The notes below the pieces were generated by a model. That model was not told where the DNA came from and did not search any database. It worked only from the letters and a program-made list of their open reading frames with translations. Below are positions 1 through 17,163 of a stretch of DNA of 64,000 bases, in pieces; the stretch's first letter is position 1, and each line of letters starts with the position of its first letter. A program made the position numbers and the translations under genes. Where the stretch lies: positions 62,001 through 126,000 of the forward strand of contig NZ_CP113517.1 in the NCBI RefSeq assembly GCF_024360925.2, in the 5' to 3' direction. Source of the DNA: Methylomonas rapida. GTDB taxonomy: Bacteria > Pseudomonadota > Gammaproteobacteria > Methylococcales > Methylomonadaceae.

Positions 1-12
1 TCCGATTTGAAG

Positions 13-1110
13 ATGAAGCCTTGGAATCCGAATGATATTCGGATTACGACTAAAAACTTCACTATCCGAGAGATTTATACCCAGATCGAAGATAAAGAAC
101 CAGATCAAGAAAAAGAGTTGGATTTAGCGCCCGATTTTCAACGAGCTTTCGTTTGGAACACCAAGCAACAGATACGCCTTATTGAATCAATTCTATTAGG
201 CATCCCTCTTCCTGCTTTTTACTTTAATCAGGATAAAGATGGTGCTCAACAGGTGATTGACGGTGTTCAGCGACTGACTACGATCAAACACTTTATGTCT
301 AATCAATTGGAGTTGAAGGAAGAGCATCTTGAATATCTGAGTCCACTGAAAGGGGCTACATTTTCTACTCTCGATCCCGCAACCAAGCGGCGATTTGCCG
401 GCACTCAGATAGTGGCTCATGTGATCGAGCCGCAAACGCCGGACGACGTTAAATACGATATTTTTAACCGTGTTAATACCGGGGGTAGTCCTTTAACTGC
501 TCAGGAGATTCGTCACTGCATGAGTAAGGAACGCTCTCGAAAATTTTTGCGAAAACTGGTTGAAAGCGAAAGTTTCGATCAGGTTATGGGCGACTTTTTT
601 TGGCGAAGAGATTCAACAGGGAAGCTGGTTCGCGATAGCAAAAGGATGACAGATAGAGAAATGGCATTACGTTTCTGCGCTTTTCATGTCGTGCCACTAG
701 AAAAATATGCTGAGGCATCGAGTCTGGATGCATTTCTGTTGGACTTTTCTCGATGGCTAGATCAACAAGCTAAACCGGCGGATTTAAAAAAACTAGAAAC
801 CGCATTTCAACAAGCAATGAGAAATTGTCATGAAGTATTTGGTGTCAGCGCATTTCGCCGGTGGGCTCCAAACAACCAATCACCAAGTGGCCGCATCAAC
901 CGAGCCATTTTTGAATCTCAAGCTTTAGCGCTCGCTGATTATTCCCTGGAAATTGTTAGCACGCATAAAGATACTATCCAAAACGCCTTAAGGAAACTCT
1001 TTAAAAACCGAGACTACGATACCTCTGTAAGCGCTGGAACAGGTTCCTACAAAAAGGTCGAAGACCGGTTGCTTAAGCCTCGCAAAGCCCTGGAGAAAAT
1101 TCTCAAATGA
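13..1110 (+). CDS. DUF262 (GmrS-like) domain protein, first gene of a putative defence cassette
   Basis: A 365-residue protein with an N-terminal DUF262 domain. The diagnostic motif IDGVQR lies near residue 84, preceded by DFQRAFVW and ESILLGIPLPAFYF and followed by FNRVNTGG, where the family conserves an Asn-Thr-Gly-Gly turn before a QEIR helix. DUF262 has a ParB/sulfiredoxin-like fold and is known from GmrSD-type modification-dependent nucleases, where it binds and hydrolyses nucleotides. No DUF1524 HNH nuclease domain follows, so a nuclease would have to come from a partner. ATG at 13 is chosen because family members start just before the WNPNDIRI segment. TTG at 7 is possible, and the frame is open to the window edge, so a start outside cannot be excluded. 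Its stop overlaps the ATPase start (ATGA), which indicates translational coupling. Defence is inferred from domain and context only. Confidence 0.85.
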   Translation: MKPWNPNDIRITTKNFTIREIYTQIEDKEPDQEKELDLAPDFQRAFVWNTKQQIRLIESILLGIPLPAFYFNQDKDGAQQVIDGVQRLTTIKHFMSNQLELKEEHLEYLSPLKGATFSTLDPATKRRFAGTQIVAHVIEPQTPDDVKYDIFNRVNTGGSPLTAQEIRHCMSKERSRKFLRKLVESESFDQVMGDFFWRRDSTGKLVRDSKRMTDREMALRFCAFHVVPLEKYAEASSLDAFLLDFSRWLDQQAKPADLKKLETAFQQAMRNCHEVFGVSAFRRWAPNNQSPSGRINRAIFESQALALADYSLEIVSTHKDTIQNALRKLFKNRDYDTSVSAGTGSYKKVEDRLLKPRKALEKILK

Positions 1111-2198
1111 TCCGTGAATTTAAACTGCGCGGTTTCAAGATGTTTGCTGACGCCAGCTTTGAAATGGCGCCACTGACTATTCTGGCCGGCATGAACGGTG
1201 CCGGTAAAACTTCAGTTATCCATGCTTTACTGCTTGTTGAAGAAGCTCGCCGACGAGGGGACAAAATTGTTCCTCTCAATGGGTCGTTTGGCTTGGAGTT
1301 AGGCGCGTTCGAAGACATCCTAAATTGGAACAGCCAGGATGCAGTGAGCTTTGATCTCACGGATGATAACGATACAGTCTATTCATGGGAGTTGGCTGGG
1401 AATGCCAGCTCACTCTATGCAGAGATACAAAAACATCCCACACAGCTTCCACCGCTCTTCGACGAAGGTGAAAGAATGTTTCAGTATCTTTGCGCCGAAC
1501 GTTACGGTCCGCGCAATATACTCGGCTCGGCGGCATTGCCGCCCGACTTGCTGGAAGTAGGCTTTCGTGGAGAGTACAGCGCCCAGGTTCTCTATAGCCT
1601 TGATAGTTTAGCCATCGCCGAATCTCGCCGTTGCCCTGGATTCGGCGAAGAGGATGCCGCGTTATTGAAATTCGAGACAGAGCGGTGGCTATCCAGGATT
1701 GCTCGCTCCGTACAGATTGATACCGATTCCATTTCTATTAGGACAGTAACCGCGCTGCGTTTCCGCGTTCCCGATGGCGAGTGGGTTCGGCCGCCCAACA
1801 TGGGCTTTGGGGTAACTTACGCGCTTCCGGTAATCCTGGCTGGCCTGACGGCTGGAAACGGCGGACTCTTAATCGTGGAAAATCCCGAAGCGCACCTCCA
1901 CCCTGCCGGCCAATCGCAAATGGGATATTTCCTTGCGGCTATGGCATCTGCCGGTGTTCAGGTCGTGGTAGAAACCCATTCCGACCATGTCTTAAACGGT
2001 ATTCGTCGTGCTATTGGCGAGCATAGTATCTTGACCAAAGATCAAGCAATTATCCATTTCTTCGATATTGATGGAACCGACCCACAGACTCTGCGTTTTA
2101 CCGAGACCGGCGGCATTGCATCTTGGCCTCGCGGATTTTTCGATCAATACCAACTCGATGTCTCCGCTCTAACCCGCGTAAGGCGTCCAAGGCAATAA
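1107..2198 (+). CDS. AAA family ATPase, DUF3696 type (SMC/OLD-like)
   Basis: A 363-residue ATP-binding protein of the ABC/SMC-like AAA_15/DUF3696 type. The N-terminus has the fold signature FKLRGFKMF and a Walker A motif GMNGAGKT at residues 28-35. The second half holds NMGFGVTYALPVI (residue 231 on), the Walker B LLIVENPEAHLHP (254-266) and a switch histidine in VVVETHSDHVLNGIR (287-300). The C-terminal tail past residue 305 fits DUF3696. There is no TOPRIM domain, so it is not a classical OLD nuclease. It overlaps the DUF262 gene by four bases and is followed three bases later by the third gene, so the three are surely one operon. Such ATPases usually act as sensors or loaders for an effector in defence modules. 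That role is inferred here. Confidence 0.85.
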   Translation: MIREFKLRGFKMFADASFEMAPLTILAGMNGAGKTSVIHALLLVEEARRRGDKIVPLNGSFGLELGAFEDILNWNSQDAVSFDLTDDNDTVYSWELAGNASSLYAEIQKHPTQLPPLFDEGERMFQYLCAERYGPRNILGSAALPPDLLEVGFRGEYSAQVLYSLDSLAIAESRRCPGFGEEDAALLKFETERWLSRIARSVQIDTDSISIRTVTALRFRVPDGEWVRPPNMGFGVTYALPVILAGLTAGNGGLLIVENPEAHLHPAGQSQMGYFLAAMASAGVQVVVETHSDHVLNGIRRAIGEHSILTKDQAIIHFFDIDGTDPQTLRFTETGGIASWPRGFFDQYQLDVSALTRVRRPRQ

Positions 2199-2201
2199 AT
2201 C

Positions 2202-3146
2202 ATGCGCTTTGTCATCGACGAAACAAGCTGGCATTTTGATGGGCTTGAGCAAAATGGCTGTATCGAGTCATTGGAGACGTTGTTGGACTTGCTGGATGAT
2301 GCGCATGGTCAAGGACAGCTAGCCTGTTATTCGGAAGAGTTGTTTGAAACCGCCGTTTGGCAGAATAAAACTTTTTATGAATTGTATGAATCGGATTCAC
2401 CAATGGCGATACCTTGGGAAGTTCAGGAGCGTGTTGCGAGTATTTTTGGAAGACTACCCAAGTGGCAGGAACTTGACTCATGTGAGCCCAGAGATTTTGA
2501 CGTACAAATTAACAATAGAGCTAAAGAATTTGCTCCGTCAATTGCTTGGGCTCACGCTCAAACCGCCCAAAGCAAAGCCAACGCCGTTGCTTGCCTGATT
2601 TTTCCTACCGTTCGTCCAATTGGGAATCATGCTGTTACGGTCGACAATCAGATAGAGAATCTATGGTTTGTCGGAGAATTTCAAAGCTATCGTGACTATT
2701 TTCGGTGGCTCATTACCGATACCACCAAAAGTCCCGATGAATTGACAAAATTTGCAGATTCCGCATTCCCTTCACTTGATTTTATTCCCAACTCTTTCGA
2801 TGGTATCAAGGGTATGAGCAAACCTTATCGAGAGTTGATAGAGCCACTGACCAAGCATTTAAGCGTTTTGTCTGATCATGGAAAAAGAGTTTTCTCCGAA
2901 TCATGGAAAGATGCGCCTTCTAAATTCGGTTCGCATGGAATTAACATATCTGACGAGAACGGAAACACGAAGAGCAATAGCGAAGCGCGGAGAGAACGAA
3001 CACGTATTTTTAACGGTAAAGAAGTTGTGTTTTGGTGGCATAGCAAACTTGACCCAGATAGGGATCGAATCCATTTCTCTCCGGATAAAATTGCCAACGG
3101 CGGTCGTTTGTTAGTCGGGATATTTTGTCGTCATCTTCAAACCTGA
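2202..3146 (+). CDS. Protein of unknown function, third gene of the DUF262/ATPase cassette
   Basis: I do not recognise a named family. The 314-residue protein starts three bases after the ATPase stop. It is soluble, with no signal peptide or membrane segment. The first 130 residues are acidic. The last 60 contain a basic linker ([11 protein letters not shown]) followed by a compact block, [18 protein letters not shown] and then a [11 protein letters not shown] end. That conserved-looking C-terminus resembles small RelE-like toxin or RNA-binding folds in pattern only (RIHF strand, glycine turn, VG-HL end). It is the best candidate for a cassette-specific effector. A fold prediction would be decisive. 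It is probably complete, since the C-terminal block ends naturally and the stop is 84 bases before ubiA. Confidence 0.75.
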
Positions 3147-3229: not shown

Positions 3230-4090
3230 ATGGAAAAACTCAAAGACCGTCTCCATCAATACTGGCTCCTAGCCCGTTTCGACAAGCCCATCGGCATTCT
3301 GATTCTGCTATGGCCTACGCTGTGGGCCTTGTGGATTGCCGGTGACGGCAAGCCGGATGGATTGGTGTTGACGGTTTTTGTGCTGGGCGTGGTGTTGATG
3401 CGGGCCGCCGGTTGCGTGATCAACGATTACGCCGACAAGGATTTCGATCCGCATGTCGATCGTTGTAAGCTCAGGCCGATCGCGGCCGGCAAAGTCACGC
3501 CGAAAGAGGCATTGACCGTATTTGTCGTGTTGTGTCTGGTTTCGTTTGGGCTGGTGTTGTTGATGAACGGGTACACCATTGCATTGTCGTTCGTCGGCGC
3601 GTTTCTGGCCGCCAGCTATCCGTTCATGAAGCGCTTCACCCACTTGCCGCAGGCTTATTTGGGCGCGGCTTTTGGTTTTGCGGTACCGATGGCGTTTGCC
3701 GCGCAAACCAACGCAATTCCGCTGGTCGGCTGGATTTTGTATTTGGCGGTGCTGCTGTGGGCCTTGGTCTATGACACCATGTATGCCATGGTCGATATCG
3801 AGGACGACTTGAAAATCGGTGTTAAATCTACCGCGATTTTATTCGGCAGGCGGGTGCGAGAAATCACCGCTGGCCTACAGGTCGTGATTCTGGGATTATT
3901 GCTCGCGGTCGGGCAAATGCAGCATTTGCATTGGCCTTACTATGCGGGCTTGGCAATCGGAGCCGGCTTGTTCGCTTACCAGCAGAAGCTGATTTTTCAT
4001 TTCGATAAAGCCGATTGTTTCAAGGCTTTTTTGAACGCCAATTGGTTCGGTTTGGTGATCTTCATAGGGTTATTGACCGCCTATCTGTGA
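3230..4090 (+). CDS. ubiA: 4-hydroxybenzoate polyprenyltransferase
   Basis: A 286-residue integral membrane prenyltransferase that attaches the octaprenyl tail to 4-hydroxybenzoate in ubiquinone synthesis at the inner membrane. The two Asp-rich motifs of the family are present: NDYADKDFD around residues 65-73, which binds Mg-diphosphate, and [12 protein letters not shown] around 188-199. About eight hydrophobic helices follow the usual UbiA pattern, and the length matches E. coli UbiA (290). The reading frame continues upstream to 3125, but that extension is polar and unlike the family, so ATG 3230 ([12 protein letters not shown]) is chosen. ubiC, often found next to ubiA, is not here. The upstream neighbour is the defence cassette. 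Confidence 0.95.
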
Positions 4091-4154
4091 TCGACGCGAC
4101 GGCTTTGCCGGTGTTATCCTCACGTAAAATTTGAACAATATATCGGGAGGAGAG

Positions 4155-4898
4155 ATGCGATTTTTTCATAAGCTATCGGTGTTTCTGCTGGTGGCATTGG
4201 CTTTTTCCAATGCTCAAGCGGGCGAGCTGACGCGCGCGCAGGTCGAGCAATTACTGGCCAAGGCTGACAAACAACATCCGGCGCCGCTAAAGCGTAAGGA
4301 TTTGACCGACCTGGATCTTTCCGGCCTGGATTTTCGCCATGCCGATTTGTGGGGGGCTGATTTGCGCCGGGCTAATTTGAGCCATACCAATTTGTCCGGT
4401 CTGAACCTGGATTTGACGGTGATGACCAATATCAAGTTGGTCGGAGCCGATTTGTCCAATACCAGCATTTTTGGCGTCAGCCTGATGCACGCCGATGCCT
4501 CGGGCGCCAATTTCAGCGGCAGCCGGGTCATCGCGGTCATGGAAGGCGCCAATTTCAGCAACGCCGACATCAGTAACGCCGATTGGGCCGCCGACATGAA
4601 AAATCAGTCGATGGGCCTGATGCGCGCCAATCTGAAGGGTGCCAATCTGACCGGCGCCAATCTCAGCAACAGCAAGCTTGGCCGGGCCATGCTGAAACAC
4701 GCCAAATTGAACAAGGCCAATCTGAAAAATGCCGATTTGTATTCGGCCGACATGGACGGCGCCGATCTGACCGGCGCGGATTTGACTGGCGCCAATTTGT
4801 CCTCGGCCAAATTACACGACGCTATCTTCACCGACGCGATTACCACGGGTGCCCGTTTCGACAACGCGCAACACAAACCAGCGGGACTGGGTCAATAA
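4155..4898 (+). CDS. Exported pentapeptide-repeat protein
   Basis: A 247-residue protein with a clear signal peptide (MRFFHKLSVFLLVALAFSNAQA, cleavage after ANAQA-like AQA) and then about 200 residues of A(D/N)LXX pentapeptide repeats, for example ADLWGADLRRANLS and ANLTGANLSNSKL. The repeats predict a right-handed quadrilateral beta-helix in the periplasm. GGGAGGAG lies just before ATG 4155, which decides this start over an in-frame ATG 24 bases upstream. Cytoplasmic members such as MfpA/Qnr mimic DNA and protect gyrase. A secreted member is unlikely to do that, so no function is assigned. It is followed 15 bases later by the permease gene, possibly in one transcript. Confidence 0.85.
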   Translation: MRFFHKLSVFLLVALAFSNAQAGELTRAQVEQLLAKADKQHPAPLKRKDLTDLDLSGLDFRHADLWGADLRRANLSHTNLSGLNLDLTVMTNIKLVGADLSNTSIFGVSLMHADASGANFSGSRVIAVMEGANFSNADISNADWAADMKNQSMGLMRANLKGANLTGANLSNSKLGRAMLKHAKLNKANLKNADLYSADMDGADLTGADLTGANLSSAKLHDAIFTDAITTGARFDNAQHKPAGLGQ

Positions 4899-9295: not shown

Positions 9296-11140
9296 TTATT
9301 TTTCCAAATAAGTATAGGCGTTCAATCCCGCCAGCAATTCCTGTTCGAACGCCTGTTTCTGTTCGCCACTCAATGAGGTGGCGTCCAGTTTTTTCCGATA
9401 GGCGGTTTTCAACGCAGCCGTATCAATATGCACATAATCCAGTAACTCGCTGACGTCCTCGCCTTCCATGAATTCGCCAAAGCGGTAGCCGTCGCCGTCC
9501 AATTCTATGTTGATCGAATGGGTGTCGCCAAACAGGTTGTGCATATCGCCAAGAATTTCCTGATAGGCGCCGACCATGAAAAAACCAATCAGATAGTCCT
9601 CATTTTCGCCTATCGTGTGCAACGGCAGGGTATGACTGATGTTTTGCCGATCGACGTATTGATCGATGCGGCCGTCGGAATCGCAGGTCAAATCTTGCAA
9701 GACCGCGCGTCGCCCCGGTTCCTCATCCAGCCGATGAATCGGCATGATCGGAAAGATTTGATCTATGCCCCAAATATCCGGCATCGATTGAAACAGCGAA
9801 AAATTGCAGAACACCTTGTCGGCCAGCTTTTCGTCCAGCTCCTGCAAAATTTCCCGGTGATGCTGGTTGTCCAGATTCAAATCGTTCTGGATTTGCTGGC
9901 ACAGACCGACATAGTGTCTTTCGGCCTCGGCCAGTTCTATCAGACCGATGTCGCCTTGCACGAAACGGGCGCGGGCCTCGGCCATGTCGAATTGGGCGTT
10001 GTGGTAGGCTTCGCTGACGTTTGCGAAATCCACCTGGTCTAAATTTACGCCTTGCAGGCATTCCACTTCGGTGACGTTGGTGATCAACACCGCATGATGG
10101 GCGGTGATGGCGCGGCCGGATTCGGTGATGATGTGGGGTTGCGGCAAGCCGTGTTCGTGGCTGGCTTCGGCAAAGGCGCGCACGATATTGTCCGCGTATT
10201 CACCCATGCTGTAATTGATCGAACATTCGCGCCGTGAACCGCTGCCGTCGTAATCGACGCCCAGACCGCCACCGGCATCAACGGTGCTGATATTGGCGCC
10301 CAGAATATGCAGCTGCCGGTAATACTGGCCGGCTTCCTTCAGTGCCAATTTGATGTCGTGAATATTGGCGATTTGTGAGCCCATGTGAAAATGCATCAAT
10401 TGCAGGCAATCCAACATTTCGACTTGTTTTAAACGGGTGACTAGTTGCAGCACTTCGCTGGCGTGCAAACCGAATTTGGATTTTTCGCCGCCGCTGTTCT
10501 GCCATTTGCCGGCGCTGATGGTCGAGAGGCGAACCCGTAGGCCTAATAGTGGCTTGACGTTCAGCTTGGCGGCTTCCTCGATGATCAGTTCCAGTTCCGA
10601 CGGTTTTTCGATGACGATGAAGACCGATAGGCCCATCAGTTGGCCCATCAAGGCCATGCGAATATATAGCCTGTCCTTGTAGCCGTTACAGACGATGGTG
10701 CCGCCGGATTTCGCCAGGCCCAATATCGCCAATAATTCGGGCTTGCTGCCGGCTTCCAGGCCTATGTTTTCAGCGGAAACGATGCTTTCGACTACATTGC
10801 CCTGCTGGTTGACCTTGATTGGATAAACCGGGGTGTAATGACCTTGATAATCGTGTGCCTGGCGGGCTTGGTCGAAGGCTTGTTGTAGCCGGCGGATGCG
10901 GTCGCGCAGAATATCGGTAAAGCGTACCAATATCGGGAAATGTAGGCCTTTTTTTTGCAGACTTTGCGCAATCTCGTACAAATCGATTTCGGTTGCGCTA
11001 TCGAGCCTCGGCTTGACGCAGACATGACCCTGGCCGTTCACGGAAAAATAACCATCGCCCCATTGCCGTATCGCATAGAGTTGTTTGGATTGTTCGATCG
11101 ACCAGGTTTGTGTGGTCACGTAGCGTCTCCGTACTGTCAT
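9296..11140 (-). CDS. speA: Biosynthetic arginine decarboxylase
   Basis: A 614-residue PLP enzyme of fold type III that converts arginine to agmatine, the first step of one putrescine route. The PLP lysine is in TPVYPIKVNQQ (Lys109). VDAGGGLGVDYDGS and the C-terminal CDSDGRID block, which contributes to the active site across the dimer, are present. The length is close to E. coli SpeA (658), slightly short at the N-terminus. It is divergent from speE, 60 bases apart, a typical polyamine pairing. Agmatinase or agmatine deiminase and SAM decarboxylase genes, needed to complete the path, are not in the window. Confidence 0.95.
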   Translation of the reverse strand: MTVRRRYVTTQTWSIEQSKQLYAIRQWGDGYFSVNGQGHVCVKPRLDSATEIDLYEIAQSLQKKGLHFPILVRFTDILRDRIRRLQQAFDQARQAHDYQGHYTPVYPIKVNQQGNVVESIVSAENIGLEAGSKPELLAILGLAKSGGTIVCNGYKDRLYIRMALMGQLMGLSVFIVIEKPSELELIIEEAAKLNVKPLLGLRVRLSTISAGKWQNSGGEKSKFGLHASEVLQLVTRLKQVEMLDCLQLMHFHMGSQIANIHDIKLALKEAGQYYRQLHILGANISTVDAGGGLGVDYDGSGSRRECSINYSMGEYADNIVRAFAEASHEHGLPQPHIITESGRAITAHHAVLITNVTEVECLQGVNLDQVDFANVSEAYHNAQFDMAEARARFVQGDIGLIELAEAERHYVGLCQQIQNDLNLDNQHHREILQELDEKLADKVFCNFSLFQSMPDIWGIDQIFPIMPIHRLDEEPGRRAVLQDLTCDSDGRIDQYVDRQNISHTLPLHTIGENEDYLIGFFMVGAYQEILGDMHNLFGDTHSINIELDGDGYRFGEFMEGEDVSELLDYVHIDTAALKTAYRKKLDATSLSGEQKQAFEQELLAGLNAYTYLEK

Positions 11141-12600: not shown

Positions 12601-12795
12601 ATGATCAAAATAAAAGCGTTTAATGTTGTCTTGGTGTTAGCTGCTTTTGCGGCATTGTTCTTTCTGTTACCGCCCGACAGGGACGTGTCCAATGTTAGTG
12701 CAAATCAAATAGAGAGTTCCGATTCGCAACCCAGCATCACTAAAAAAGCCAATCAGCAACAATCAGTCAGAGGCCATTTTTTACATTCGGCTTGA
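12601..12795 (+). CDS. Small single-pass membrane protein, unknown function
   Basis: A 64-residue ORF starting MIKIKAFNVV, with one hydrophobic helix (VLVLAAFAALFFLLP) followed by a polar tail of about 40 residues rich in Ser, Asn and Gln. AGGTGG is well spaced before ATG 12601, favouring it over the in-frame GTG nine bases upstream. I do not recognise a family. It ends seven bases before the convergent M48 protease gene. Moderate confidence that it is expressed, based on the ribosome site and the clear membrane topology. Confidence 0.5.
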   Translation: MIKIKAFNVVLVLAAFAALFFLLPPDRDVSNVSANQIESSDSQPSITKKANQQQSVRGHFLHSA

Positions 12796-12801
12796 TAAAG
12801 C

Positions 12802-13761
12802 TCAATACCAAAATCCTCCTACACGCCAGCGCGGCGCATGCTGAACGGCTTTAGTGGCATAACCAATAGGAAGATCGCTTGCCAAGGACGGCTTCAAATC
12901 AGAATAAGTCATCGCATATCCCTCCAAACGTTTGATACGTTCTTCCGTCGGTGGGTGACTCCGTAGCCATGAAGGCTGCGGGTTACCCCAGCCGGGCAAA
13001 AATATTTCTATCCAGGATCGGCTGTGGTGTTCAATTCTGGCCAAAGCATAAGCCAAACCCAAGGGATCGCCGGTCAGGATTGCCGCTTTTTGGTCGGCAT
13101 CGTATTCACGAACTCTGGATAGGCCTAGCTGGGCCAATACCGCCAGTTGAGGTGAAAACAAAAGCAGCAGCATCGAAAACCAATTGATGCTGATGCCGTA
13201 GCCCTCGATGAACAGTATGGGCAATGACAGCAACAGCATCAGTTGTCCTGCGGTGGAAAGTAAATTGGTCAGGCGGCTAATGTAATCCGCCAGTCCCATG
13301 ACTTTCAAATCGCCATGCGCAATATGGGCTATTTCATGGCCCAATACGCCGCTTAGTTCGCGTAGAGTCAATTTGCTTAGCAGGCCATAAGTCAAGGCGA
13401 TCGCGGCGTGTTTGCCGTGCCCGACCGCGAATGCATTGATCATTGGGCTGGGGATGTAATAAAGCACCGGTGTGGCGGGTAATTCGGCGCGTTGACTCAG
13501 AATCGTGACGATCCGCCACAGATCAGGTGCTTCGGTGGGATAGATTGGTCTCGCTTGATAAAGACGCAGCGTCATGCGCCAGGCGGCGACGGGTTCGAGA
13601 ATCAATGTCAGTAAGGCGCCGCCCAAGGCGATCCACAGTCCTATTGCACCCAGCAGCAAATTACCAACCAGGCCGCTGATTGTCAGTAGCAGGATGATCA
13701 ACAACGCCGTTTGCAAACGATTGCGCCATTGATGAGGCCGTAAGGGAGGCGGGACGGACAT
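12802..13761 (-). CDS. M48-family zinc metalloprotease (HtpX-like)
   Basis: A 319-residue membrane protease. The zinc motif HEIAH is at residues 142-146 in LSGVLGHEIAHIAHGD, and the third ligand is probably the glutamate in the downstream REYDADQKA segment. Two hydrophobic helices lie at residues 17-60 and two more after the motif (about 170-215). The C-terminal SHPPTEERIKRLEGY is typical of HtpX-type proteins. It likely degrades damaged membrane proteins. The neighbouring cbpM-cbpA genes in the same direction, only two bases upstream, make a protein quality-control operon plausible. Confidence 0.9.
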   Translation of the reverse strand: MSVPPPLRPHQWRNRLQTALLIILLLTISGLVGNLLLGAIGLWIALGGALLTLILEPVAAWRMTLRLYQARPIYPTEAPDLWRIVTILSQRAELPATPVLYYIPSPMINAFAVGHGKHAAIALTYGLLSKLTLRELSGVLGHEIAHIAHGDLKVMGLADYISRLTNLLSTAGQLMLLLSLPILFIEGYGISINWFSMLLLLFSPQLAVLAQLGLSRVREYDADQKAAILTGDPLGLAYALARIEHHSRSWIEIFLPGWGNPQPSWLRSHPPTEERIKRLEGYAMTYSDLKPSLASDLPIGYATKAVQHAPRWRVGGFWY

Positions 13762-13763
13762 GG

Positions 13764-14072
13764 TTAGCGTTTGCCTGCGCGCAGCAATTGTCGTCGTAAG
13801 CTATCCAGCTCTTCCTGCAGATCGGCCACCAAGGCCGCCAATTCCGGTAGGGCATCGAAGTTGCGTTCTATCGTCAAGATGCGTTTGGCACGGGTCAGTT
13901 CCACCGAGGAAAAGCACCAGGCGCCACTTTCCAATTTTGCCGCAGACAGTAGGCCGTCCTGGAGGTGCTGCAAAACCCAATCCGGTTCGACCGCGCACAG
14001 CGCGGCCAATTGCTCTACGGAAAGATAGGTTTCCTCGACTACGGTAGCAATCATGATTTCTGTATTGGGCAT
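13764..14072 (-). CDS. cbpM: Chaperone modulator CbpM
   Basis: A 102-residue MerR-like helical protein that binds the J domain of CbpA and inhibits its co-chaperone activity. The pattern is a short helix-turn-helix-like N-terminus (YLSVEQLAALCAVEPDWV), the GAWCFSSVELTRAKRI core and a C-terminal coiled segment (ALVADLQEELDSLRRQL). Its position nine bases downstream of cbpA is diagnostic. An internal ATG at 14054 would remove only six residues. Confidence 0.88.
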   Translation of the reverse strand: MPNTEIMIATVVEETYLSVEQLAALCAVEPDWVLQHLQDGLLSAAKLESGAWCFSSVELTRAKRILTIERNFDALPELAALVADLQEELDSLRRQLLRAGKR

Positions 14073-14081
14073 GGTGTCTCC

Positions 14082-15035
14082 TCAGTGATTGCGGCGTGGA
14101 TCAAAAGCCAGTTCCTGAGCCATTTGTTGGTAAAACCGCCGCGCTTTGTCGCTGGTCGCGGGCGGTAATAATACTTGTATGTCCAGTAATAGATCGCCCG
14201 GCGGGTCGCTTGGCAGGCCCTTGCCGCCAAGGCGTAACTGCCTGCCGCTTTGCGTGCCCTCCGGTATTTTCACTTTCAGGCTGGTATCGACGAGATTGAG
14301 TGGAATCATGGCGCCCAGGGCCGCTTCCCAGGGTGTCACCGGCAGGGTCAGGTGTAAATTCTTGCCGTCGACCCGAAAGCGCGGATGCGGATTGAAACAG
14401 ACTTCCAGCAACAAATCGCCGGCCTTGCCGCTGCCCATGCCCGGCGCTCCCTGGCCGCCCAGGCGAATGATCTGACGTTCGTAAACGCCTTTGGGGATTT
14501 TGATGTTCAGCACCCGGCTATCGAGTTGCATACGACCTTGCGCATCCACACGCGGTACCCGCAACGTGATTTGGCGCGAGGCGCCGCGGAAACTGTCTTC
14601 CAAGTCCAGCATGACCTTGGCATGATGGTCTTCGCCCCGGGCATTGAAACGATCTCGACCGTAATATTGACCGGTATCGGCGCGAAATCCACGCATATTG
14701 CCAAATAACTCGGCGAAAAAATCGCTGAACTCGGCGGCTTCGCGCGGATTGAAGCCCCGGCTGGAAAATTCAAAGCCTGCGTCCCAATTCGGCGGTGGTC
14801 TGAATTCTTGTCCCGATTGATAGCCGCGACCCAATTGATCGTAGGCCGCGCGTTTTTCTGGGTCCGATAGCACCGTATAGGCTTCGTTGACTTCCTTCAT
14901 GCGGGATTCGGCGTTGGGTTCCTTGGACACGTCGGGATGATATTTGCGCGCCAGTTTGCGGAAGGCTTTTTTGATTTCTTCCAGTGAAGCATCGCGTTTG
15001 ACGCCCAATGTTTGATAATAATCCTTGTATTGCAA
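14082..15035 (-). CDS. cbpA: DnaJ-family co-chaperone / curved DNA-binding protein CbpA
   Basis: A 317-residue type II J protein. The J domain occupies residues 1-70 with HPD at 33-35 ([10 protein letters not shown]), followed by a Gly/Phe-rich linker and two beta-barrel substrate-binding domains (from about 140), including [19 protein letters not shown] and [19 protein letters not shown]. There is no zinc-finger cysteine cluster, which separates it from DnaJ. It stimulates DnaK and, as CbpA, binds curved DNA. It is followed by its modulator cbpM and then the M48 protease. Confidence 0.93.
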
Positions 15036-15145
15036 AAATCCCCCTTGCGCATGATGTCGCGACAGGTTTTACGGCCTTGAACAGACATGGAAACATTAAA
15101 GTAGCCCATGACGTGACATTTTTGAATGTACTTTAACCGAGCGCC

Positions 15146-16141
15146 ATGTCCATAATCCATCATTGTTTTGAACCCGCCTGGTGGTTGAATAACCCCCACT
15201 TGCAAACCGTTTATCCAGCCTTGTTGCGCAAGCCGCCAACGTTGATGCGAAAACGTCAGCGCTTGTTCACCGAGGATGGCGATTTTATCGATCTGGATTG
15301 GTACGGCGACGATGATCGCGCGATTGTCATCCTGCTCCATGGCTTGGCGGGCAGTTCTCAATCGGGCTACATACTCGGTTTGCAGCATGTACTTAAACAA
15401 CATGGTTTTTCCAGTGTTGCCATGAATTTTCGGGGTTGCAGCGGTGAGCCTAATCGTTTGGCGCGCAGTTATCATTCTGGCGAAACCGAGGACATTGAGT
15501 TTGTTTATCAAAGTCTGCGCCAGCAATTTCCAAAATCCGCATTGGCCGCCGTGGGTTTTTCGTTGGGCGGCAATGTGCTGCTGAAGTGGTTGGGCGAACA
15601 AGGTTGTAAAGTCAAATTGTTTGCGGCGGCGGCCATTTGCGTGCCGTTGGTGCTGAGCGCATGCGCCACGCGGCTGGATCATGGCGTTTCCAGGCTTTAT
15701 CGAGGTTACCTGCTAAACGAGTTGAAGCGCTATATCAATATCAAAAAGCGGTATTTGCTGACAAATGGGAGGATGGCGGAAGCGGAAAAGTTGATTCAAC
15801 TGGGCGATTTATCTTCGGTACAGTCATTCTGGCAATATGACGATCTCGTCGTGGCTCGTTTACATGACTTCAAAGATGTAAACGATTACTATCGGCGCGC
15901 CAGTTCGCGACAGTTTTTGCCCAAAATTCGCGTGCCTTCTTTATTGATTCAGGCTCGAGACGATCCCTTCATGACGCCGGACGTTTTGCCGTCAGCCGAT
16001 GAGCTGAGTTCGGCCGTGGAATTGGAAATATGCAGCAACGGGGGGCATGTCGGTTTCATCGAGAAGCGGCGTGGGTTTGGGCACCGCTATTGGCTGGAAA
16101 AAAGGATTCCTGCGTTTTTGGGCGATAAGCTGAAAAATTAG
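15146..16141 (+). CDS. YheT-like alpha/beta hydrolase
   Basis: A 331-residue hydrolase of the YheT/EMB8 family. The N-terminus carries NPHLQTVYPAL, typical of the group. The oxyanion region is LLHGLAGSSQSGYI (64-77), the nucleophile elbow is GFSLGGN (Ser139), the acidic residue lies in QARDDPFM (Asp272 or 273) and the histidine is in NGGHVGF (His301). The physiological substrate of YheT proteins is not established, and esterase activity is expected. It is divergent from cbpA. Confidence 0.9.
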   Translation: MSIIHHCFEPAWWLNNPHLQTVYPALLRKPPTLMRKRQRLFTEDGDFIDLDWYGDDDRAIVILLHGLAGSSQSGYILGLQHVLKQHGFSSVAMNFRGCSGEPNRLARSYHSGETEDIEFVYQSLRQQFPKSALAAVGFSLGGNVLLKWLGEQGCKVKLFAAAAICVPLVLSACATRLDHGVSRLYRGYLLNELKRYINIKKRYLLTNGRMAEAEKLIQLGDLSSVQSFWQYDDLVVARLHDFKDVNDYYRRASSRQFLPKIRVPSLLIQARDDPFMTPDVLPSADELSSAVELEICSNGGHVGFIEKRRGFGHRYWLEKRIPAFLGDKLKN

Positions 16142-16209
16142 GCCGCTTCCCTGGCTTCCCGCATCCAGGTCCAGCCGGTGGCGGCCCTGTTTGAGCCTGA
16201 TTTTTCCGG

Positions 16210-16215
16210 TATAAT
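16210..16215 (+). promoter_or_regulatory. Candidate -10 box for glyQ-glyS
   Basis: A consensus TATAAT lies 33 bases before the chosen glyQ start. The best -35 candidates nearby are poor matches, so this is a partial call. Confidence 0.4.
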
Positions 16216-16248
16216 CACAGCATTTTTACCACTCAATTGGCTCCCGAC

Positions 16249-17163
16249 GTGTCGACAAGCAAAAACGATGTCTCTACTTTTCAGGGCCTGATTCTGACCT
16301 TGCAGCAATACTGGTCGGAGCAGGGATGTGTGCTGTTGCAGCCTTTGGATCAAGAAGTGGGCGCCGGGACTTTTCACCCCGCGACTTTCTTGCGCGCCAT
16401 TGGTCCAGAGCCCTGGAACGCGGCTTACGTCCAGCCTTCGCGCCGCCCGACCGACGGCCGTTACGGCGAAAACCCCAACCGTTTGCAGCATTACTACCAA
16501 TATCAGGTGGTGATGAAACCGTCGCCGGACAATATCCAGGAATTGTATCTGGGTTCGCTGCGCCATTTGGGGCTGGATTTGCTGGAGCACGACATTCGCT
16601 TTGTCGAAGACAACTGGGAATCACCGACTCTGGGCGCCTGGGGCTTGGGTTGGGAAGTCTGGTTGAACGGCATGGAAGTGACTCAATTTACCTATTTTCA
16701 ACAGGTCGGTGGCCTGGAGTGCAAGCCGGTGACCGGCGAAATTACCTATGGTCTTGAGCGGATCGCGATGTATCTGCAGGGCGTGGAGTCGGTGTTCGAT
16801 CTGGTCTGGACCCGCGGTCCTCAAGGTGTGGTGACTTACGGCGACGTGTTCCATCAAAACGAAGTGGAAATGTCGGCGTTCAATTTCGAACACGCCAACG
16901 TCGATTTCCTGTTTCAATGCTTCGATACCTTCGAGGCGGAATGCCTGAAACTGTTGGAGCAAAACTTGCCCTTGCCCGCTTACGAAATGGTCTTGAAAGC
17001 CTCCCATTCATTCAACCTGCTGGATGCGCGCCACGCCATTTCGGTCACCGAACGCCAACGCTACATTTTGCGGGTGCGCAATCTGGCCAAATCCGTGGCC
17101 GAAGCCTACTACGCCCGCCGCGAAGCCTTGGGCTTTCCGATTCTTGCCAGACAGGGAGTGTAA
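16249..17163 (+). CDS. glyQ: Glycyl-tRNA synthetase alpha subunit
   Basis: A 304-residue class II catalytic subunit of the bacterial alpha2beta2 enzyme that charges tRNA-Gly. The family hallmarks [45 protein letters not shown] and [16 protein letters not shown] are all present. GTG at 16249 is chosen because it gives a length equal to E. coli GlyQ (303). TTG at 16237 is in frame but would add four residues. It is followed three bases later by glyS. Confidence 0.96.

Follow-up and report, generated by a model that had tools for sequence, protein, structure and literature searches.

The three co-directional genes that occupy the first 3.1 kb of the stretch of Methylomonas rapida DNA analysed here (the window, 64,000 nucleotides, positions 62001-126000 of a genome that consists of a single contig of 4.59 Mb) raise the question of which system they encode, why they lie where they do, and which of their products would act against an invader. 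From the letters alone, the original prediction had described them as a putative defence cassette of a DUF262 protein, an SMC-like ATPase and a protein of unknown family, with possible kinship to Menshen. Menshen reportedly goes back to Millman et al. 2022. In this study, we compared the three proteins with curated models, aligned them with their counterparts in relatives, and compared the site that they occupy across the genus.

Identity and structure of the operon

The genes, all on the + strand like every feature given below, are as tightly coupled as had been described. The 3' part of nsnA (1..1110) overlaps nsnB (1107..2198) by the four bases ATGA (1107-1110), and three bases (2199-2201) separate nsnB from nsnC (2202..3146), which encodes a protein of 314 aa. 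In the PADLOC comparison suggested along with the original prediction, all three proteins match Menshen models, namely NsnA (E 2.2e-114), NsnB (E 3e-96, positions 1-343 of 345) and NsnC (model PDLC03914, E 8.3e-105, 1-314 of 314), each far above any other system and in the A-B-C order of Menshen. Because these are near-full-length matches to three curated models, the genes are not chance open reading frames. The runner-up for the first gene, PD-T4-2_A (E 1.8e-33), is some 80 orders of magnitude worse than the NsnA model, and the partner genes are those of Menshen rather than of PD-T4-2. By homology, the operon is almost certainly a complete Menshen system (nsnA-nsnB-nsnC), so that a cassette first proposed as a possible Menshen relative can now be called Menshen itself. 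The particular NsnC type found here, PDLC03914, is one among many PADLOC NsnC models.

The domain content agrees with the original description of all three proteins. GmrSD_N/DUF262 is the sole Pfam family above the cut-off in the first (E 2.9e-28), and none of the three proteins matches DUF1524/HNH in Pfam. The second combines AAA_15/AAA_21 with DUF3696, which occupies the C-terminus where Pfam finds no TOPRIM match. The third has no Pfam family (best E 0.25) and is recognized through its PADLOC model, and an NCBIfam search of the three proteins gave nothing above cut-offs. NsnB thus shares its AAA_15/AAA_21 core with OLD, Gabija GajA, PARIS AriA and Septu PtuA. In contrast to these, it lacks a TOPRIM match, carries DUF3696 and is part of a three-gene unit with DUF262; its PADLOC matches to them are much weaker than that to NsnB, and its PDB sequence matches are weak.

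The passages on Menshen in the review PMC10952713 list it as an anti-phage system in which resistance is abolished by loss of the DUF262 gene. They also credit Menshen with a predicted OLD-type nuclease, although the NsnB described here has no TOPRIM match. The excerpts of PMC10121019, PMC12704722 and PMC12839542 that concern Menshen hold little on mechanism.

One element of the original prediction, the start of the first gene at base 13, has to be given up. The nsnA frame is open through base 1 of the window, and the gene is therefore cut by the window edge, which is also why the PADLOC match of NsnA begins at position 37. The earlier ATG (L002:13869), 132 bases upstream of window base 1, would give a protein of 413 aa, and an alternative ATG (L002:13914), 87 bases upstream, one of 398 aa. 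Only the latter is shared: both close relatives (G016 and G013) have an ATG aligned with it. As judged from this shared codon, nsnA is predicted to begin 87 bases upstream of the window, with base 13 encoding an internal Met.

Conservation of NsnA and NsnB

The motifs QR, DGQQR and FxxxN are named for DUF262 in the relevant part of PMC12137116. In our alignments of NsnA and NsnB (21 sequences each, from this genome and 20 relatives), the three DUF262 motifs are invariant in 21 of 21 NsnA proteins: QR (139..144), DGxQR (259..273; D, G, Q and R) and FxxxN (463..477, here FNRVN; F and N). The third position of DGxQR is L, V or R in these proteins and never the canonical Q; the motif here reads DGVQR. 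The nucleotide-binding residues of NsnB are likewise kept in all 21 sequences. They comprise G28, N30, G33 and K34 of Walker A (GMNGAGKTS, 1188..1214), P260, E261 and H263-P266 of the Walker B region (LLIVENPEAHLHP, 1866..1904), and E289, H291, S292 and H294 of the H-loop region (ETHSDH, 1971..1988). Measured by these motifs against the NsnA and NsnB of the 20 relatives, the operon bears no sign of decay.

The three-gene architecture recurs, as had been expected. NsnA-model matches at E <= 1e-20 were found in 33 of 121 genomes; one of the 46 matches listed is our own, and 40 of the other 45 were taken for locus comparison. NsnB adjoins NsnA in half of these loci (20/40), a count obtained with our own NsnB as the single query (phmmer, E <= 0.01), by which divergent NsnB proteins may have been missed. 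The 20 loci lacking an adjacent NsnB were excluded from the Menshen counts; in three of them (L068, L070 and L076) a weak NsnB-like ORF lies further away. All 20 A-B loci have a same-strand gene directly after nsnB, and for each of the 10 third genes scanned an NsnC model is the best PADLOC match. The same three genes (annotated as DUF262, DUF3696 and hypothetical) also occur on a Burkholderia glumae plasmid, between insertion sequences/transposases.

PDLC03914, the NsnC model of this operon, matches 10 of 61 genomes, strongly (E <= 3e-102) only in our own, G016 and G013; in the other seven the match is between 3e-9 and 8e-6, and in five it covers the C-terminal half alone. A search with our NsnC gave 153 homologues (E <= 0.001), and 109 of the 120 listed were aligned with it into a family of 110 members. 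NsnC was absent from 50,697 phage records (E <= 1e-5), and relatives of it were found in 4 of 72,556 plasmid records. A candidate NsnB-NsnC fusion (P0105), in which the first ~105 residues of NsnB run in frame into NsnC from about residue 20, lies on a 1.4 kb contig; it was read as a deletion or an assembly error and excluded.

Modularity of NsnC

The last ~150 residues of the third protein (~147 in our own NsnC) show a common pattern in 17 of the 21 third genes, ours included, as assessed from the alignment and by eye. The pattern consists of H-x-K (or similar), R-I/L/V/M-H/Y-F/W/Y and a short end such as IGYIGxHL. It is preceded by E-S or E-N in 14 of the 17; the NsnC proteins of L048, L057 and L058 lack this pair and end in YIGxKITK. 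In our protein the domain comprises residues 168-314 (2703..3143), and we propose it as the killing part. When the 13 C-termini from outside our own family were compared with those of the family, hhalign returned a probability of 98.3% (E 1.3e-14). H280 and R289, which lie in a 12-residue segment (3039..3074), are invariant across 12 aligned C-termini, and E252, H280 and K282 are among the invariant residues of the 110-member family.

The four third genes without the shared C-terminus are those of L049, L056, L052 and L061. L052 is informative when set beside L057: the two loci are 74% identical in NsnA, 71% in NsnB and 52% over residues ~1-160 of NsnC, whereas their NsnC C-terminal halves do not align and matched different NsnC models. 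This pair represents a natural exchange of the C-terminal half, as would befit an exchangeable effector. The third gene of L061, which PADLOC assigns to NsnC and in which Pfam has zero matches, contains the stretch HxR(x)4D, which by eye is similar to the PLD motif HxK(x)4D.

When the N-terminal half of our NsnC was compared by BLAST with the other third genes, nothing beyond its own type matched, although a second PADLOC NsnC model, PDLC03899, matches residues 18-311 (E 7.7e-10); both halves of NsnC thus vary. In searches of the PDB with sequence profiles, matches remained at chance level for the 110-member alignment (best E 0.18) and for the 12 C-termini (best E 0.49). Searches for the C-terminal domain in other protein contexts, under a length filter that leaves out much longer proteins, gave 156 and 130 matches; in none of the 10 scanned of the 156 did the domain lie outside NsnC, the best model being PDLC03896.

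The hldE-ubiA site

The operon fills the gap between hldE, whose end lies 219 bases before the window begins, and ubiA (3230..4090), which forms the downstream edge of a site that varies strongly within the genus. The genus was surveyed through ubiA, which could be located in 35 of 37 genomes; the resulting comparison of our own and 34 other neighbourhoods included hldE within the stretch in 27 of 35. Across these 27 genomes the hldE-ubiA distance ranges from 12 bases to 7.9 kb: the genes are 12-30 bases apart in six, and inserts of 0.6-7.9 kb separate them in 20. A further apparent insert of 473 bases, in L175, is the remainder of hldE and not cargo. The next junction upstream, arsC-hldE, which serves as a control, measures 51-83 bases in 26 of 26 genomes that showed both genes. 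One gene further out, the wrbA-hldE distance is 416-445 bases in 24 of 26 and about 1.17 kb in L147 and L148, which indicates that small insertions occur there too. The GC content of our insert is 46%, compared with 53% for the surrounding 18.5 kb.

Menshen is found in three of the 20 inserts (our own, G016 and G013), and it is from these three genomes of the genus that the hldE-ubiA location of Menshen is known. To survey the remaining cargo, 18 proteins from eight inserts were scanned with PADLOC; L143, L149, L153, L154, L166 and L167 were left out. Six of the eight inserts contain proteins that match other defence systems at E <= 1e-25: HEC-01 in L145, HEC-06 in L148, AriA next to an AriB-like partner of weaker match in L151, DndC and PbeC with AriA/AriB-like genes in L152, a type IIG restriction enzyme with a helicase in L146, and in L155 a metallophosphatase-NACHT-LRR protein with a PDC-S60 match over its first ~290 residues. 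The insert of L144 has no strong defence match; it holds a ParE-HTH pair by Pfam, for which PADLOC returned only an HTH-type match. The PADLOC scan of L164 was empty. L150, L158 and L159 share genes with L145, L152 and L148, respectively (BLAST, 70-97% identity). ParE-like ORFs are present at the site in six relatives, five of them with an HTH partner; the pair scanned is that of L144.

Within the genus, the hldE-ubiA site qualifies as a defence hotspot, occupied in relatives by different defence genes or by none. The position next to ubiA had been likened to that of an inserted island, a view that the six genomes with only 12-30 bases between hldE and ubiA bear out. It had also been considered that homologues might consistently be found outside defence islands, which is not the case at this site. 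The cargo has probably been exchanged through recombination within the core genes on either side.

Discussion

Taking together the gene identities, the operon structure, the kept NTP motifs, the modular NsnC and the hotspot location, we consider it probable that the three genes form a complete anti-phage operon of the Menshen kind, carried as exchangeable hotspot cargo, with NsnA sensing, NsnB relaying and NsnC killing. In such a pathway, the DUF262 (ParB/Srx-like) NTP-binding protein NsnA would sense a signal of infection, which is probably the phage DNA or a modification that it carries. NsnB, an SMC/OLD-like ATPase that differs from OLD proteins in having no TOPRIM nuclease, may relay the signal via ATP-dependent dimerisation. 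The N-terminal half of NsnC would dock on NsnA/NsnB, a role that we assign to it as a guess. The C-terminal domain, with its invariant His and Arg, would then be the killing enzyme, most likely one acting on nucleic acid, and its action would stop the infected cell, giving an abortive outcome. That the C-terminus is the effector is the assignment towards which we lean. We are more tentative, and rather short of evenly balanced, about nucleic acid as its target, which is suggested by the His/Arg/Lys core and by the PLD-like stretch in the L061 third gene.

The same components could be arranged as a type IV restriction-like system, in which NsnA would recognise modified phage DNA, NsnC would cut it and the cell would survive. 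According to the pertinent sections of PMC10952713 and PMC12137116, GmrSD, BrxU and SspE use DUF262 as their modification-sensing/NTPase domain, and NsnA retains all three DUF262 motifs. However, those proteins combine DUF262 with DUF1524, whereas the present system has no DUF1524/HNH match and has a separate ATPase and a third gene. In addition, what is DGQQR in the canonical motif is DGxQR in every one of the 21 NsnA proteins (DGVQR for ours), and the C-terminal domain of NsnC has no match to known nuclease families. We regard a restriction mechanism of this kind as unlikely.

Two other explanations draw on toxins, and each seems to us distinctly improbable. According to one, the C-terminus of NsnC would be a divergent RelE/ParE-like ribonuclease toxin restrained by NsnA/NsnB. 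The basic, His-rich end of NsnC looks toxin-like by eye, and the NsnC of L062 has a weak ParE_toxin match (positions 3-85 of 89, E 0.061) that scores 14.3 bits against a cut-off of 23. This was examined by hhalign with toxin sets drawn from loci of the relatives (ParE 26/30, HigB 23/30, PemK 24/30 and PIN 26/30; the remaining loci had internal stops, were short or were just not included). The four NsnC C-terminal alignments gave 0.2-1.4% against ParE and HigB, compared with 43-46% for ParE against HigB as the positive control, and with 0.1-0.5% for PemK/PIN and 0.1-0.5% for reversed queries as negative controls; a RelE/ParE-like fold is thus not supported, although a more distant relation within this fold class may escape such a comparison. 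According to the other, the operon would mainly serve a purpose other than phage defence, as an addiction or plasmid-exclusion module. The ParE-like ORFs at the hldE-ubiA site, mostly paired with an HTH gene, and the occurrence of the operon among transposases on the B. glumae plasmid would fit such a role. However, NsnA and NsnB have NTPase motifs and not antitoxin features, anti-phage-type proteins occur in most of the scanned inserts, and the Menshen passages of PMC10952713 report an anti-phage activity that requires the DUF262 gene.

The interpretation of the operon as anti-phage cargo with a sensing NsnA, a relaying NsnB and a killing NsnC can be extended to a bolder proposal, which we put forward as speculative and, as a whole, doubtful. 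The C-terminus of NsnC might represent an enzyme family outside Pfam, NCBIfam and (by sequence) the PDB, built around an invariant His-Arg core and swapped among Menshen systems as an interchangeable warhead, with the NsnA-NsnB sensor conserved, and the target of the protein found here might differ from those of the Menshen systems tested so far.

Menshen is already in print, and so, going by its title, is the domain polymorphism of Menshen, which is said to be the subject of Li et al. 2025 (NAR gkaf357); we claim no priority for the polymorphism. The additions made here are the hldE-ubiA hotspot, set against a control junction, the revised start of nsnA and the C-terminal exchange. The exchange between L052 and L057 makes it easy to ask whether the way in which Menshen arrests a phage depends on the C-terminal half of NsnC alone. 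For the biology of the genus, the present findings place Menshen in a methanotroph and tie it to hldE-ubiA as a repeatedly used socket for the swapping of defence genes. Because defence genes are swapped at this site, searching it across the genus can bring new systems to light.

Alternative third genes were found in several Menshen operons. In the Menshen locus L049, the third gene (10195-10983; PADLOC model PDLC03909) is of a further type, as is that of locus L056 (10258-11049), and the two have in common the pattern SPKHGENG...WHGFHV, which differs from the common C-terminus of NsnC, the proposed effector. The third gene of locus L061 (2064-2756) encodes 230 aa and gave zero matches in a Pfam scan; by eye, it contains a PLD-motif-like HxR(x)4D stretch. 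Several relatives of the DUF262 protein NsnA occur in the genome of the close relative G013, which has five matches to the NsnA model; two of these are adjoining pieces with internal stops (C2:32719-33784).

The hldE-ubiA junction is a defence hotspot across the genus (neighbourhoods L143-L176). There, L155 encodes a metallophosphatase-NACHT-LRR protein of 1330 aa (12642-16634), whose PDC-S60 match in PADLOC is confined to the N-terminal part. In the window, the protein adjoining ubiA (4131-4898) begins, as judged by eye, like a leader sequence, and repeats of the pentapeptide type come after this. PADLOC and Pfam scans gave no match for two further ORFs at the junction, one of 422 aa in L164, with relatives in L166 and L154, and one of 445 aa in L144; both are candidate unknown systems.
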